In this document: piece by piece, positions 38,627 to 44,331 of the stretch
How the letters are laid out: the number at the start of each line of letters is the position of its first letter
How positions within the stretch are numbered: the first letter of the stretch is position 1
Source of the DNA: Flavobacterium nitrogenifigens
Lineage (GTDB): Bacteria > Bacteroidota > Bacteroidia > Flavobacteriales > Flavobacteriaceae
Length of the DNA: 64,000 bases
Direction of reading: 5' to 3'
NCBI RefSeq assembly: GCF_003254565.1
Contig: NZ_QJRI01000169.1
Coordinates: 62,001 to 126,000, forward strand
Translations under genes and position numbers: made by a program
The notes under the pieces: model-generated
Told to the model about the DNA's origin: nothing
Databases searched by the model: none
The model's input: the letters and a program-made list of their open reading frames with translations, nothing else

Positions 38627-38815
38627 TAACCGCAAAGAGCGCAAAGGTTTACGCAATCCCGATGACTATCGGGAGCAAAGTTTTTTACTTGAAAAATAAA
38701 ACTCTCGCAAAGTCGCAGAGTCGCAAAGTTTATTATTCTTAGCGACTCTGCGACTTTGCGAGATTCTTTAAAAATGTAGCATGCTTAGCGTAAACCTTTG
38801 CGCTCTTTGCGGTTA
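38627..38815. repeat. Nested perfect inverted repeats of CGCAAAG words
   Basis: Outer arms 38627-38654 and 38788-38815 are a perfect 28-bp inverted repeat. Inner arms 38704-38724 and 38742-38762 are a perfect 21-bp inverted repeat built of CGCAAAGT/CGCAGAGT units. A near-palindrome TCCCGATGACTATCGGGA (38657-38674) sits just inside the left outer arm. The element lies between convergent genes. Confidence 0.85.
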
Positions 38816-38881
38816 AAAAAACAAAAGTCCAGCCAATAAGGCCAGACTTTTAATTTTTAATTCCAGATTTTAATTCTTTTC

Positions 38882-39262
38882 TTAAGACTCTTTGATCACT
38901 TTCTTTACACCCCCAAAACTAGTTTTCAGCATTTCTCTGATCTGAAACTGTGTTTTGTTCTGCGATGCGCTTTTCCAATCTTTGAGATCAAAAATATGAA
39001 TTTGATCTGCGTAAGGATTAGTTAAGAATGAAATTCGTGAAATGGTATATTTATAATATTTCAGTTCGTGAGAAACATGTCGATTTGGAACAACAATTAG
39101 TATATTTTCCCAATTCAAAAAGTCTTTCGGAACATCTTTTCTTTCTAACAATCCTAAAGATTCAAAAAAAGCGACAATCTTTTGATCATTAAGTTTACTA
39201 ATCTTATGATCGAGGTTCTTAAAAGTTGTCTGGAGTCTATTTTCGTTAATAATAGTACTCAT
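38882..39262 (-). CDS. Uncharacterised 126-residue protein
   Basis: I do not recognise the family. The protein has no signal peptide or membrane span. It begins with an amphipathic helix region (TTFKNLDHKISKLNDQKIVAFFESLGLLE), has a central beta-like stretch (ENILIVVPNRHVSHELKYYKY) and a basic C-terminal end (FGGVKKVIKES). Composition and codon use match neighbouring native genes. It is convergent with the thioredoxin-like gene and divergent from the GH2 gene. Confidence 0.65.
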   Translation of the reverse strand: MSTIINENRLQTTFKNLDHKISKLNDQKIVAFFESLGLLERKDVPKDFLNWENILIVVPNRHVSHELKYYKYTISRISFLTNPYADQIHIFDLKDWKSASQNKTQFQIREMLKTSFGGVKKVIKES

Positions 39263-39476
39263 GATGGTAATTGCTTTTTTGTGATTTTAATATAAAATTA
39301 CATCAAAAGAAAATCATTTTCGAATCTGAAGCCATTAGATTCATTCTAAATTTTGAAAGTCCATTTTTGAAGCATTTGTTATGAATGAGTTATCAGATTT
39401 TGATAAAATACTATTAATGTTTCTTCTCTAAATGCTTTATTTTTATCGCTATTTGATTTTACTAACTACCAAACCT

Positions 39477-42296
39477 ATGAAAACCAATTTCCTCCTACGA
39501 ACAATTTTTTGTCTTTTATTTCTATGTTCAATTCCTGCTTTTGCACAAAACAAATCAGGAAGAGAACTTATTTTAATTGATAAAGACTGGCGATTTTCAT
39601 TTGGACATTTATACGATACCAAAAAAGATTTTGGCCATGCAGAAGGTTATTTCTCCTATCTGACTAAAACGGGATTTGCTGATGGGCCAGCGGCTTCTGG
39701 ATTTGATGATCGTGCTTGGAGAAAATTAGATTTACCGCATGATTGGGCAGTTGAACAGCCTTTTAGCGAAAGCGCAAGTTTCAGCCACGGGTTTAAAGCA
39801 GCAGGAAAAAACTATCCTGAAAAGAGCATTGGTTGGTATAGAAAGAGAATAACCCTTCCGAATGAAGATTTAGGGAAAATTATTTCTTTAAAATTTGATG
39901 GAGTTTTTAGAAATTCAAAAGTCTTTTTTAACGGATTTTACCTAGGAACAGAAGAAAGCGGTTATAATGGTTTTGAATATGATGTAACGGCTTACGTTAA
40001 TTATGGAGGCGAAAATACAATCGTAGTCCGCGTTGATGCTTCGATGGAAGAAGGCTGGTTTTATGAAGGAGCAGGAATTTATAGACATGTCTATTTGCAG
40101 AAAACCAATCCGCTTCATGTGGCACAGAACGGAACTTATGTAACTTCTGAAATTGCTAATGATAATGCTGTAATTACAGCAGAAGTAAAATTGGAAAGCA
40201 AAGGGCATTATAAAGGAAATGTTGAAATAAACCAGACTATTTTGGATGCTTCAGGAAAACAGATTACAACTGTTTATGAAAATGTTACAGCTCCAGATTT
40301 CTATAAAACAAATAGTTATACTTCAGAATTAAATGTCAAAAATCCGCTTTTGTGGGATATTGAAAATCCTAATTTGTATCAGTTAATTACTGAAATCAAA
40401 AGCGAAGGAAAAGTTATTGATCAGTATAAAACTTCATTTGGAATTAGAACCATAAAATTTGATCCAGAAAATGGTTTTTTCCTTAACGGAAAACATGTAA
40501 AACTAAAAGGAACAAACAATCATCAGGATCATGCAGGAATTGGGACGGCGCTTCCAGATGAAATCCAGTATTATAGAATCGCAAAACTGAAAGCAATGGG
40601 CTCAAATGCCTATCGTTGTTCGCATCATCCGCCAACTCCCGAATTATTGGATGCTTGCGACAAATTAGGAATGTTGGTTATTGATGAAACTCGTTTAATG
40701 GGAATCAACGATTATCATTTGAATGATTTACAGCGAATGATGGAACGTGACCGAAATCATCCTAGTATTTTTTGTTGGTCGGTTGGAAATGAAGAATGGC
40801 AGATTGAGGGCGGAATTACTGGCGAAAGAATTACCAATATCATGCAGGATTTCAGTAAAAGCATCGATCCGACGAGACCTGTTACAGTAGGAATCAGCAG
40901 CGGATTTAAAAGCGGAATTTCTTCGGTTGTAGAAGTTATGGGTTATAATTATCTCGGAAATGGAGATATCGATGCGCATAGAAATCAGTTTAAAAATCAG
41001 CCCGGAATGGGAACTGAAGAAGGTTCAACTTTTGCCACACGCGGTATTTATTTTACCGATGATGCCAAACATTACCAAAGCGCTTACGATAAAAAACCTC
41101 GTCCGACTTTTTATAGTATTGAAGAAGGTTGGAAATTCTACGCGGAAAGACCTTATTTAGCAGGAATGTTTATCTGGACAGGTTTTGATTATCGAGGTGA
41201 ACCAACGCCTTATGGCTGGCCGTCTGTAACGTCTTATTTCGGGATGATGGATGTCTGCGGTTTCCCAAAAGACAATGTTTTCTACTTAAAATCATGGTGG
41301 GGAAAAGAACCTGTTTTGCACCTGTTGCCACATTGGAATTGGCGCGGAATGGAAGGCAAAGAAATCGATGTTTGGGCGTATTCTAATTGTGATGAAGTGG
41401 AACTTTTTCTCAACAAAAAGAGTTTAGGAAAAAAGAAAATGGAGCAAGACGGTCATTTAGAATGGAAAGTAAATTATGCTGCTGGAACTCTAGAAGCTGT
41501 TGGGTATAAAAACGGAAAAAAAGTACTTTCAGATATTCAAAAAACAACTGGAAAGCCTGAAAGCATTAAATTGTCATTGGATAAAGAGAATGTTTTAAAA
41601 GGTAATGTTTCGGTTGTAACGGTTGAAGTTACAGATAAAAATAGTTTGCATGTTCCTACAGCAAATGAAGAAATTACCTTTTCAATACAAGGAGGAAAAA
41701 TTTTAGGAGTAGGAAATGGCGATCCAACTTCATTAGAAAGCGATCAGTTTATTGATGGTATTGCTTTAGTTGCTATAAGTAATTTTATGGAACAGAAAGC
41801 AGAAACTGAGACTCTGCCTCAGAATTTGCCAAATTATTCAGAAAACGAATGGACAGCAGCTTTTAAAGATCGTAATTATAAAAAACAAGCTCCATCTTAT
41901 ATTTATAAAGGAGAATTTGATTTAAAGAACAACTTAGCTTCAAATGTGGTGAGTTTCTTTTATAAAAAAATAGGAGTAGAAACAGTAGTTTTTGTCAACG
42001 GAAATAAAGTAGAATCAAGCAAAGAAGATTTGCAAAAATATATTTTGAATGCAGCTATTTTGAAAGAAGGAAAAAATACGATTCACATTGTGGCTACACC
42101 TTTGCAAAAAATAAAAGATTGGGATGTTATGAATACCGATCCAGGAATCATTCAAGTTATCACGCCTGCAGAGCCTTGGAAAAGAAAGCTTTTTAATGGT
42201 TATGCACAAATCATTATTCAGAAAGATGAAAATGCAGGAGAAGTGGTTTTATCTGCTTCTGCGAAAGGATTACGTGCTGCCATTTTAAAAAATTAA
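39477..42296 (+). CDS. Exported GH2 beta-galactosidase-type glycosidase
   Basis: A signal peptide (1-23, AFAQ) is followed by the sugar-binding jelly-roll (~60-210), Ig-like (~215-330) and TIM-barrel (~335-620) GH2 domains, then DUF4982-like and further Ig-like modules to residue 939. The acid/base Glu439 lies in SVGNEEWQ; the nucleophile is expected in FYSIEEGW, before WTGFDYRGEPTPYGWP, which is typical of the beta-galactosidase/DUF4982 branch. The ATG at 39477 places the signal peptide correctly; the frame from 39432 adds 15 residues. It is not part of a SusC/D locus here. Confidence 0.92.
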   Translation: MKTNFLLRTIFCLLFLCSIPAFAQNKSGRELILIDKDWRFSFGHLYDTKKDFGHAEGYFSYLTKTGFADGPAASGFDDRAWRKLDLPHDWAVEQPFSESASFSHGFKAAGKNYPEKSIGWYRKRITLPNEDLGKIISLKFDGVFRNSKVFFNGFYLGTEESGYNGFEYDVTAYVNYGGENTIVVRVDASMEEGWFYEGAGIYRHVYLQKTNPLHVAQNGTYVTSEIANDNAVITAEVKLESKGHYKGNVEINQTILDASGKQITTVYENVTAPDFYKTNSYTSELNVKNPLLWDIENPNLYQLITEIKSEGKVIDQYKTSFGIRTIKFDPENGFFLNGKHVKLKGTNNHQDHAGIGTALPDEIQYYRIAKLKAMGSNAYRCSHHPPTPELLDACDKLGMLVIDETRLMGINDYHLNDLQRMMERDRNHPSIFCWSVGNEEWQIEGGITGERITNIMQDFSKSIDPTRPVTVGISSGFKSGISSVVEVMGYNYLGNGDIDAHRNQFKNQPGMGTEEGSTFATRGIYFTDDAKHYQSAYDKKPRPTFYSIEEGWKFYAERPYLAGMFIWTGFDYRGEPTPYGWPSVTSYFGMMDVCGFPKDNVFYLKSWWGKEPVLHLLPHWNWRGMEGKEIDVWAYSNCDEVELFLNKKSLGKKKMEQDGHLEWKVNYAAGTLEAVGYKNGKKVLSDIQKTTGKPESIKLSLDKENVLKGNVSVVTVEVTDKNSLHVPTANEEITFSIQGGKILGVGNGDPTSLESDQFIDGIALVAISNFMEQKAETETLPQNLPNYSENEWTAAFKDRNYKKQAPSYIYKGEFDLKNNLASNVVSFFYKKIGVETVVFVNGNKVESSKEDLQKYILNAAILKEGKNTIHIVATPLQKIKDWDVMNTDPGIIQVITPAEPWKRKLFNGYAQIIIQKDENAGEVVLSASAKGLRAAILKN

Positions 42297-42298
42297 AT

Positions 42299-42453
42299 TA
42301 ACCGCAAAGTTCGCAAAGATTTACGCAAAGCACGCAAAGAGAAATAAAACTTTGCGTTTCTGCGTCTTTGCGAGATTCTTTCATAAAGCTAAAAAAAACA
42401 TAGCTCCCGATAGCTATCGGGATTGCGTAGATCTTTGCGTTCATTGCGGTTAA
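42299..42453. repeat. CGCAAAG-word inverted repeat carrying an 18-bp palindrome
   Basis: Left arm TAACCGCAAAG... (42299-42327) pairs with the right arm at 42424-42452 with a few mismatches. Within the loop are a second pair (AAACTTTGCG/CGCAAAG) and the exact palindrome TCCCGATAGCTATCGGGA at 42405-42422. The same outer word set occurs at 38627-38815. Confidence 0.8.
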
Positions 42454-42505
42454 ACCTAAAACCTGAAACTTTAAACCTGAAACAAAAAATATTGTTTGAT
42501 TTTCA

Positions 42506-42513
42506 TAACTTTG
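42506..42513 (+). promoter_or_regulatory. Promoter -7 box of the AraC gene, possible leaderless start
   Basis: TAACTTTG matches TAnnTTTG and ends only 4 nt before the ATG at 42518, so transcription would start at or next to the start codon. Confidence 0.55.
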
Positions 42514-42517
42514 CAAA

Positions 42518-43387
42518 ATGAATAATCAGACAGAAACTCAGAATTGCGATTTTACTTCAGATTTGAAAATGAAGGGATTTAAAGTGTATCCTATAAATGG
42601 AGACTATAGTAAAGTTCCCGTTTATAGCCGAAGAGACTTTTATAAAATCTGCATCAACACCAGTAAAAGCATTATACAATATGCTGACCGCGGAATAGAA
42701 ACCGACGGAACGATTCTGTTTTTTGGGAATCCGATTATTCCGTATTCTTGGGAAACTATTTCTGAGAAATTTGAAGGCTATGCTTGTGTTTTTACCGAAG
42801 AGTTTTTTAAAACAAAAGACCGATCAGAAACCCTTCAGGAATCGCCTTTGTTTAAAATAGGAGGAACGCCAATCTTTACTCTAACGCCTGAACAAAAGGT
42901 GTTTATTGATTCGTTATTCCAAAAAATGATTCAAGAGTACGAAACTGATTATGCTTTCAAAGACGATTTGATGCGCAGCTACGTCAACTTGATTATTCAT
43001 GAATCAATGAAAATGCAGCCTTCAGAGAGTTTCTTTAAACATAAAAATGCTTCTTCGAGAATTACGTCTTTATTTTTAGAATTACTGGAAAGACAATTTC
43101 CAATAGAGACCAAAGATCAGCCGTTGGCTCTAAAAACACCTCAAGATTATGCACAAAGCCTTTCTGTGCACGTGAATCACTTAAATCGTTCTGTAAAAGA
43201 AGTTACCGGAAAACCAACCACGGCACATATTACAGAAAGAGTGGTTAACGAAGCAAAAGCTTTACTACAGCACACAGATTGGAGTATTTCTGATATTGGT
43301 TATTCGCTTGGGTTTGAATACCCGAGTTATTTCAATAATTATTTTAAAAGACTTACTGGAACGGTTCCGAAATCACTTCGGATGTAA
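42518..43387 (+). CDS. AraC-family transcriptional regulator
   Basis: The 289-residue protein has a cupin-like N-terminal sensor (~20-170) and a C-terminal double helix-turn-helix (~190-289) with YAQSLSVHVNHLNRSVKEVTGKPTT-type first helix pair and the signature WSISDIGYSLGFEYPSYFNNYFKRLTG. Both helices are intact. It lies just upstream of cupin, alcohol dehydrogenase and aldo/keto reductase genes on the same strand, which are likely targets. This class of AraC regulators frequently controls such reductases in Bacteroidota. Confidence 0.92.
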   Translation: MNNQTETQNCDFTSDLKMKGFKVYPINGDYSKVPVYSRRDFYKICINTSKSIIQYADRGIETDGTILFFGNPIIPYSWETISEKFEGYACVFTEEFFKTKDRSETLQESPLFKIGGTPIFTLTPEQKVFIDSLFQKMIQEYETDYAFKDDLMRSYVNLIIHESMKMQPSESFFKHKNASSRITSLFLELLERQFPIETKDQPLALKTPQDYAQSLSVHVNHLNRSVKEVTGKPTTAHITERVVNEAKALLQHTDWSISDIGYSLGFEYPSYFNNYFKRLTGTVPKSLRM

Positions 43388-43697
43388 ATTGTTTCAATTT
43401 CTTAATTTTTTGTTTGAATATTGTTATTTCGGCATTGCACTATTGCACTACATTTGCCCTGAAATAAACAACGAATCTTTGTATCAGTTTTTTTAATGAC
43501 TAAATAATACTTCACAAAAGCATGCTCCGCTTTGCATTTAGTTTTAAATTTTGATAATAGAAAAAATTATAAAATTTTTAAAATATTAATTAAAATCAAC
43601 AATCTCCTTCTATAAGAGATTCGATGTGCTGATTATTTCATTCAAATAAGCTTATAAGAATTTTTAAAATTAATTATTAACCTAAAAAATCGAAATT
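43388..43697. other. Gene-free spacer with a possible AraC target site
   Basis: No credible gene is present. The one structured feature is a tandem duplication ATTGCACT-ATTGCACT (43434-43449) that abuts a promoter-like TACATTTG (43449-43456). Direct repeats of this kind are typical AraC-family operators, and the AraC gene ends 47 bp upstream. The implied leader to the cupin gene would be ~240 nt. The rest is AT-rich with no strong hairpin. Confidence 0.45.
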
Positions 43698-44096
43698 ATG
43701 TCGACACAATTCACTGCCGTAACCGAAGAAGGTAAAATTCCAAATACTTATATGACAGGCGAAGTGTCATATAAGAAACAGACAAGCGAAATTCACCCAG
43801 AAAATACTGTTATAAAAGATGTTTCTTTTGAGCCTGGAGCAAGAAGCAATTGGCGTATTAATGCAAGTCTGCAATTGATTATTGTAACGAATGGAGTTGG
43901 GTATTACCAAGAAAGAGGCGGACAAATTAATCTTATCGAAAAAGGAAAAGTAATCACGGTTTTACCTGGAATAGAGCATTGGTACGGAGCAACACCAAAA
44001 ACGAAATATTCTCATATTACCATTTTTACTGAGGTAGATAAAGGTCATGGAACTTGGCTGAATAGCGTTACCGATGAAGAATATCATTCTTTTTAA
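43698..44096 (+). CDS. Cupin-domain protein
   Basis: The 132-residue single-domain protein has cupin motif 1-like residues (VSFEPGARSNWRINA, in which the usual His are replaced) and motif 2 (LPGIEHWYGATP, with His). It resembles the carboxymuconolactone/quercetinase-like small cupins that often travel with dehydrogenases. Loss of the usual GxHxH pair makes metal binding uncertain. It is the first gene after the AraC regulator and probably co-regulated with the alcohol dehydrogenase and aldo/keto reductase downstream. Confidence 0.85.
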   Translation: MSTQFTAVTEEGKIPNTYMTGEVSYKKQTSEIHPENTVIKDVSFEPGARSNWRINASLQLIIVTNGVGYYQERGGQINLIEKGKVITVLPGIEHWYGATPKTKYSHITIFTEVDKGHGTWLNSVTDEEYHSF

Positions 44097-44119
44097 GCTT
44101 CTAAGGTACTAAGTTGCTA

Positions 44120-44137
44120 TCCCGATAGCTATCGGGA
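44120..44137. repeat. 18-bp palindrome TCCCGATAGCTATCGGGA
   Basis: Exact self-complementary 18-mer in the cupin-to-dehydrogenase spacer. Further exact copies are at 44283-44300 and 42405-42422, with a variant at 38657-38674. Confidence 0.9.
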
Positions 44138-44282
44138 CTAAGTTTTTTTACGCCGATTTTACTGATTTATAACAGATTATATTTTTTGATTAGCTAAAAA
44201 TAATCGAAATTTATATAACTGTTTGTAAATCAGTATAAATCAGCTAGACTTCTATTGCAATTTCAGAACGGTTTTAAACCTG

Positions 44283-44300
44283 TCCCGATAGCTATCGGGA
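44283..44300. repeat. Second copy of the 18-bp palindrome
   Basis: Identical to 44120-44137, 32 nt upstream of the alcohol dehydrogenase start codon. Together the two copies bracket most of the 235-bp spacer. Confidence 0.9.
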
Positions 44301-44331
44301 TGAAACAAAAACAAAAAACAACAATAAAATT

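Follow-up and report, generated by a model that had tools for sequence, protein, structure and literature searches.

What is an 18-bp perfect palindrome doing, repeated exactly, in neighboring spacers of a bacterial genome? The question arises from a 64,000-nucleotide stretch of Flavobacterium nitrogenifigens DNA (contig NZ_QJRI01000169.1, positions 62,001 to 126,000; hereafter the window), in which a first-pass annotation reported three exact copies of the palindrome and one variant with a GACT center, all of which we confirm (Table 1). We conclude, with a probability of roughly 0.6, that the palindrome is a mobile DNA element of miniature size, which spreads by being copied and pasted in one piece. 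Below, G codes denote genomes, with G000 the genome of the window, and L codes denote loci.

Abundance and distribution

G000 (5,436,059 bases in 182 contigs) holds 68 exact copies in 5.4 Mb, or about 12 per Mb, whereas by arithmetic a given 18-mer would be expected about 8e-5 times in 5.44 Mb and the reversed pattern, used as a control, returns 0. The count rises to 76 when any four-base center is accepted and to 93 when up to three mismatches are allowed, so that the perfect form makes up 68/93 (73%). Chance repetition had been judged negligible in the first-pass annotation, and this holds at both scales: 100 shuffles of the window give an expectation of 0.00, and the excess over expectation extends far beyond the window instead of fading outside it.

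The palindrome is dispersed Bacteroidota-wide. At least one exact copy is present in 99 of the 249 genomes of the genus (G000 included) and at least 10 in 35 of them, with 68 the maximum; the other 150 have no exact copy. Across the family it occurs in 79/299 genomes (again with G000) and in 70/236 genera. A scan of 84,980 species returned at least 118 stretches, against about 4 copies expected at random in the whole collection (by arithmetic). Among the matches listed, 117 are titled Bacteroidota and one 'uncultured bacterium'; the groups represented are Flavobacteriales, Sphingobacteriales, Chitinophagales, Saprospiraceae, Cytophagales and Bacteroidales, with several listed records sharing one assembly. 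IMG/VR contains the 18-mer in 37 stretches and neither of two made-up control palindromes (0 and 0). These exact-match searches register perfect copies only. Among the open-licence papers that literature searches listed, none treats such an 18-bp palindrome judging by its title or the start of its abstract, and a search for the string itself found no paper.

Within G000 the position of the palindrome is nearly exclusively intergenic: 1/54 copies lies inside an open reading frame (ORF), although ORFs, as called by a crude ORF caller, make up 81% of those loci. The corresponding figures are 20/125 for the phylum loci (85% ORF) and 8/40 for IMG/VR (84% ORF). Of the 50 copies listed among the 68 in G000, 11 lie within 500 bp of another copy. 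At L066, two copies 284 bp apart (positions 2166 and 2450) have near-identical flanks, as though a filled site had been duplicated locally in tandem. A role as a terminator was considered and rejected, as gene orientation around the G000 copies matches spacer composition: convergent-gene spacers hold 9 of 50 placed copies and 22% of spacer bases. In the genome_contigs set such spacers make up 15% of spacer bases but contain 20 of the 86 copies that lie between two genes, a mild excess.

The 18-mer has relatives. A sister palindrome, the 16-mer TCCCGAAGCTTCGGGA, occurs in 90/249 genomes of the genus and shares the joint signature described below. One or the other may dominate, or both may be frequent (18-mer/16-mer copies: 66/0 in G406, 0/48 in G375, 49/51 in G418), and their copy numbers correlate weakly (Spearman 0.27, raw, with genome size not corrected for). 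Six sister matches in IMG/VR, judged by eye from their flanks to be chance occurrences in coding DNA of other organisms, were left out of the counts. Among hairpins running from TCCCGA to TCGGGA in the Flavobacterium loci read, the center is TAGCTA in 59, AGCT in 43, AGCC in 6 and something else in a few, counts that are biased by the choice of loci.

Insertion as a block at a preferred joint

For the flank statistics, copies whose flanks were identical counted as one and those too close to a contig end were dropped, which leaves 122 or 123 of 125 copies in the phylum set, 53 of 54 in the set from G000, and 35 or 36 of 40 from IMG/VR. Read with A on the left, the copies sit at a preferred joint, A/palindrome/C or G (a slash marks the point of insertion here and below), in 42/53 cases in G000, 79/122 in the phylum set, 28/42 in other genera of the family, 17/35 in IMG/VR and 26/43 for the sister 16-mer. 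Flanking bases that would lengthen the palindrome are depleted (17/123, with 40.8 expected). Given the joint signature and this depletion, the adjoining A may belong to the moving unit, which would then measure 19 nt.

Gain or loss happens as a whole block, as a comparison of orthologous spacers with and without it demonstrates at six sites. In the spacer at 44097-44330, G304 and G351 have both copies and G360 only the second, while G503, G347, G406, G385, G374 and G513, which share 88-94% identity with G000 in the upstream gene, have neither. Among the ten closest genomes read, site 44120 is thus filled in G304 and G351 besides G000 and not in seven others, and site 44283 is filled in 4 and empty in 6. 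Spacers in the genus, this one and its orthologs among them, contain numerous 7-9 bp arrays (CTAAGATT, CCTGAAA, AAATCTA and CGCAAAG types), whose length differs between species. At 38657, G406 has the same variant, and in G513 a closely similar host repeat reads GGTTC in the palindrome's place. The place orthologous to the copy at 42405 carries a copy in G385 as well. At L289:2278, G406 is filled (CATCTTAG/TAGAATCTC) and G000 empty (CATCTTAGAATCTC), with flanks that are 94 and 90.5% identical.

At the remaining two sites, joints used by the 18-mer are also used by close variants of the sister palindrome, which have the foot in common with it. At L049, 27 of 29 relatives are empty and G503 has a one-mismatch copy; in G355 the very same TCTAA/CTAAAA joint is occupied by another palindrome, CCCCGAAGCCTCGGGA. 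At L053, where 8 relatives were compared, G393 is filled and six lack a copy, three of these keeping AAAT in its place; G388 has TCCCGAGGCTTCGGGA twice, at TCTA/CTA joints of the same spacer. The suggestion in the first-pass annotation that copies lying within other repeats imply independent insertion or spread is thereby supported, both by the six filled and empty sites and by the different palindrome at one joint. In a tree of three concatenated genes, G000 and G351 fall in a different group from G304 and G360, so the joints shared by G000, G304 and G351 may reflect either insertion in parallel or early insertion followed by several losses; recombination may also have contributed.

Whether insertion duplicates or replaces target bases is less settled, and we lean toward replacement of 3-5 bases. 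Relative to re-paired flanks, direct repeats bordering the palindrome are in excess in G000 at exactly 3 bp (8/53 vs 1.45) and at 4 bp (8/53 vs 1.84), in the phylum set at 4 bp (8/123 vs 0.74) and 3 bp (7 vs 3.1), and for the sister 16-mer (7/43 vs 1.4); other genera of the family show no excess (1/42 vs 1.33), and the 4-bp result in IMG/VR is not clear (1/36 vs 0.09, reached in 181 of 2000 shuffles). A fixed target duplication as the general rule was at first favored from these repeats. It was dropped because there is none in the other genera, three bases are missing from tRNA-like targets, and L053 and 38657 read as replacements. Read as replacements, the tRNA-like cases would have lost 3 bases, the L053 site 4 and the 38657 site 5, judging from the empty counterparts of the latter two; G406 L289:2278 reads as a clean 3-bp duplication.

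The targets are enriched in short arrays. A direct repeat of at least 7 nt common to both 25-nt flanks is found at 34/123 phylum copies (4.8 expected), 13/43 sister copies (2.6), 12/53 G000 copies (6.4; largest shuffle 11) and 2/42 copies in other genera (1.2). Hairpin loops also serve as targets: with a stem score of at least 8 required, 21/165 copies from the phylum and other genera lie in one, against 4.6 with re-paired flanks and with 0 of 200 shuffles reaching this number. Nesting occurs too; at L165 the palindrome sits exactly in the middle of TCCCGATAATTATCGGGA.

Genes for structured RNAs are hit as well. RNase P RNA genes carry the palindrome in three lineages (L095, L166 and L423), always in the same 3' joining segment; in L423:264-608 a second copy lies elsewhere in the gene, making two in all. 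Outside G000, 5/201 copies fall in a tRNA D-loop (re-paired mean 0.27, largest 3 in 500). At L026, L102, L148 and L174 (the weakest case) the host is tRNA-like but truncated and lies upstream of an intact tRNA; compared by eye, it has the palindrome at a point where the intact gene has an extra three bases (GTT, AGT, GTC and ATT). These truncated 5' copies, comprising the acceptor strand and D-arm, lie about 20 to 490 bp upstream of the intact gene in different Bacteroidota. ARAGORN calls no tRNA at L148 or L184 with or without the palindrome, none at L026 or L102, and only the intact neighbor at L174. At L424:243-332 the palindrome occupies the D-loop of a tRNA-Val(gac)-like gene that is complete in other respects; ARAGORN calls tRNA-Val there only after the palindrome is removed, Rfam at its gathering score does not list the gene, and in the predicted fold the palindrome would form a hairpin of its own on the D-arm. 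Similarly, at L192/L209 ARAGORN finds tRNA-Met only with the palindrome taken out, while Rfam reports a weak tRNA at L192 (32.1 bits) with it in place. A degenerate tRNA copy at L184 holds the palindrome in its variable loop and differs from its neighbor by more than the insert.

The copies in the window and the repeats that host two of them are listed in Table 1. Genes in the window were identified by eye, and Rfam at its gathering score finds no family there. The inner part of the host repeat at 38627, whose inverted ends read TAACCGCAAAG...CTTTGCGGTTA, looks inverted in G360 (by eye).

Table 1 Copies of the palindrome and host repeats in the window
Feature	Position	Joint or sequence	Context
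Exact 18-bp copy	42405..42422	...ACGCAA / GCTATG... (other strand)	
Exact 18-bp copy	44120..44137	...GTTGCTA / CTAAG...	within CTAAG-type repeat array
Exact 18-bp copy	44283..44300	...AAACCTG / TGAAAC...	within CCTGAAA heptamer array
Variant copy, GACT center	38657..38674	TCCCGATGACTATCGGGA; ...ACGCAA / GCAAAG...	
Host repeat with inverted ends	38627..38815	TAACCGCAAAGAGCGCAAAG ... CTTTGCGCTCTTTGCGGTTA	variant copy embedded; ends set by eye
Second host repeat, same type	42299..42452	AACCGCAAAG...TTGCGGTT	surrounds copy at 42405; ends set by eye

The mover and rival explanations

How might such a short block move? The form pasted would most likely be a single-stranded hairpin, either DNA or RNA copied into DNA, and its target would be single-stranded or loop-forming DNA. 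A break or stall at a loop or repeat would come first, after which the hairpin would be captured with the loss of 3-5 target bases. The foot, TCCCGA and TCGGGA, is probably what the machinery recognizes, with the center free to vary (TAGCTA, AGCT, AGCC), and the agent would be an enzyme common among Bacteroidota, either the host's own or one acting in trans. In its most specific form, which we offer tentatively, this model would have a phylum-wide Bacteroidota machinery insert an 18-19 nt hairpin into structured loops (terminators, tRNA D-loops, RNase P RNA, palindromes) or between repeat units, replacing 3-5 bases and using neither a Y1 transposase nor a reverse transcriptase (RT).

Several observations weigh against this picture. 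The flanking direct repeats in G000, at 3 bp and at 4 bp alike, fit target duplication equally well, and where the array period is 7-9, duplicating k bases gives the same outcome as replacing period minus k, save for one array unit. The enrichment in hairpin loops is absent in G000 (3/53 vs 3.54) and for the sister 16-mer (3/43 vs 1.6), and in IMG/VR it lies within the shuffles (8/36 vs 2.9, largest 10). Moreover, a match to Y1_Tnp (PF01797) is present in 33/35 genomes with at least 10 copies, so that a RAYT may have acted in the past or in trans.

The last point bears on the first of two unlikely alternatives, that of a repetitive extragenic palindromic (REP) element moved by a RAYT (TnpA-REP, a Y1/HUH transposase). 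Like REP elements and REPINs with their RAYTs, as PMC3116915, PMC3733652 and PMC6006769 describe them, the copies are short extragenic palindromes, and dispersed; Y1_Tnp matches occur in 184/249 genomes of the genus, with three in G000. Unlike them, the copies are shorter and mostly single, and the tags GTAG, GTGG and CGTC, looked for within 0-2 nt of the foot in 205 copies, number 5, 2 and 3, about chance level. As to the inverted doublets that replicate as the unit of a REPIN, the 11 of 50 listed exact copies lying within 500 bp of another may bear on them either way, since a palindrome has no orientation. In G000 the 18-bp palindrome is absent from all three Y1_Tnp loci, covered to about 1.5 kb on either side of the match, and G351, G328 and G302 carry 37, 11 and 9 copies with no Y1_Tnp match. 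Going by tags, the Y1_Tnp neighborhoods in G000 and gene content, a RAYT seems not to be needed at present, and we set a RAYT origin aside as improbable. Two of the G000 loci have palindromes of their own: the RAYT-like gene at L070:1045-1785 (contig C80) contains three copies of the perfect palindrome AGACGCACTGCAGTGCGTCT, in frame as ETHCSAS, and the second Y1_Tnp gene, on contig C153, is accompanied by another hairpin, CCCACGGTTGAAACCGTGGG, at L069:1362-1381, some 45 bp from where its ORF ends. REP insertions inside genes are described for RAYT subclass 2.4 in PMC6006769.

The other, similarly improbable, alternative is a retroelement-like hairpin spread in cis or in trans by an RT of the retron, group II intron or diversity-generating retroelement (DGR) type. 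RNA genes and terminator-like hairpins are among the targets, and the literature on the small dispersed repeats (SDR) of cyanobacteria is said to have suggested RNA intermediates. However, seven genomes have no match to RVT_1 (PF00078, a search that would miss RTs too divergent from that family), namely G406 (66 copies, one contig), G393 (48, one contig), G476, G514, G351, G429 and G503 (70% complete). Nor is there a clear association with copy number, RVT_1 matching in 13/20 high-copy and 11/20 zero-copy genomes, and RT as the agent was set aside as improbable on this ground. Because high-copy genomes exist without Y1_Tnp or RVT_1, and G351 lacks both, neither seems to be needed at present; the agent may be a lost, a divergent or an unrelated enzyme.

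Still less probable is a remnant like a miniature inverted-repeat transposable element (MITE), in which two 6-9 bp terminal repeats have been joined and are moved by a DDE transposase. The conserved foot around a variable center would suit such an origin, as would the enriched flank repeats of 3-4 bp in G000 and 4 bp in the phylum set. The apparent duplications, however, range from 2 to 5 bp and lack the fixed length of a MITE, other genera show no flank duplication, and tRNA-like targets have 3-bp losses; no longer parent element was seen, no search having been dedicated to it. Last, we regard it as very unlikely that the palindrome is an immobile site which selection keeps for its function with a nucleoid, terminator or uptake protein: the sequence varies little and is the same across the phylum, and its predicted RNA hairpin is stable (-9.4 kcal/mol including the A), but the joint signature, the different palindromes at one joint and the presence or absence of whole blocks require an insertion process, G000 has no convergent-gene excess, and most genomes of the genus have no exact copy. 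The protein-binding site suggested in the first-pass annotation may or may not exist, but binding alone would not account for insertion as a block.

Resemblance to known repeats and significance

The best reading is of a miniature mobile element closest in behavior to the cyanobacterial SDR, a likeness rather than membership. Like them, it is very short, hairpin-forming, dispersed in spacers, nested (L165) and apparently mobile; it sits in heptamer-type tandem arrays and other repeats and is present or absent at orthologous sites. Unlike the SDR, which reportedly measure 21-27 nt, it is a perfect palindrome of 18 bp (19 with the A), keeps one sequence phylum-wide in a different phylum, and has the joint A/S (S being C or G). 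STRR heptamers inside cyanobacterial RNase P RNA genes offer a second parallel, being likewise short repeats lodged in the variable parts of rnpB; here the insert is a palindrome rather than a heptamer array, and the hosts are Bacteroidota.

A highly iterated palindrome, as the first-pass annotation had also proposed, brings to mind HIP1 of cyanobacteria, which according to PMC4390886 is likewise a perfect palindrome over-represented across many genomes of one phylum. HIP1 is an octamer, however, and the Bacteroidota palindrome is an 18-bp block at preferred joints. At its density in G000, and placed as blocks with a preferred joint, it is not an over-used word, and the proposal in the sense of HIP1 is unsupported. 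SDR5 occurs inside HIP1, according to a passage citing Elhai et al. 2008.

If a phylum-wide machinery of the kind proposed does insert these hairpins, the palindrome would rank below every other known mobile element in size, and it would sit inside working RNA genes. Should a unit of 18-19 nt be able to spread through a whole phylum, the minimum size of mobile DNA would drop, and part of the repeat content of Bacteroidota spacers would be explained. The copies in RNase P RNA genes and in the tRNA-like gene offer a test of how far essential RNAs tolerate a foreign hairpin. The signature of the element (A/palindrome/C or G, foot TCCCGA), together with its pairs of empty and filled sites, makes SDR-type movement testable in a genetically tractable genus.

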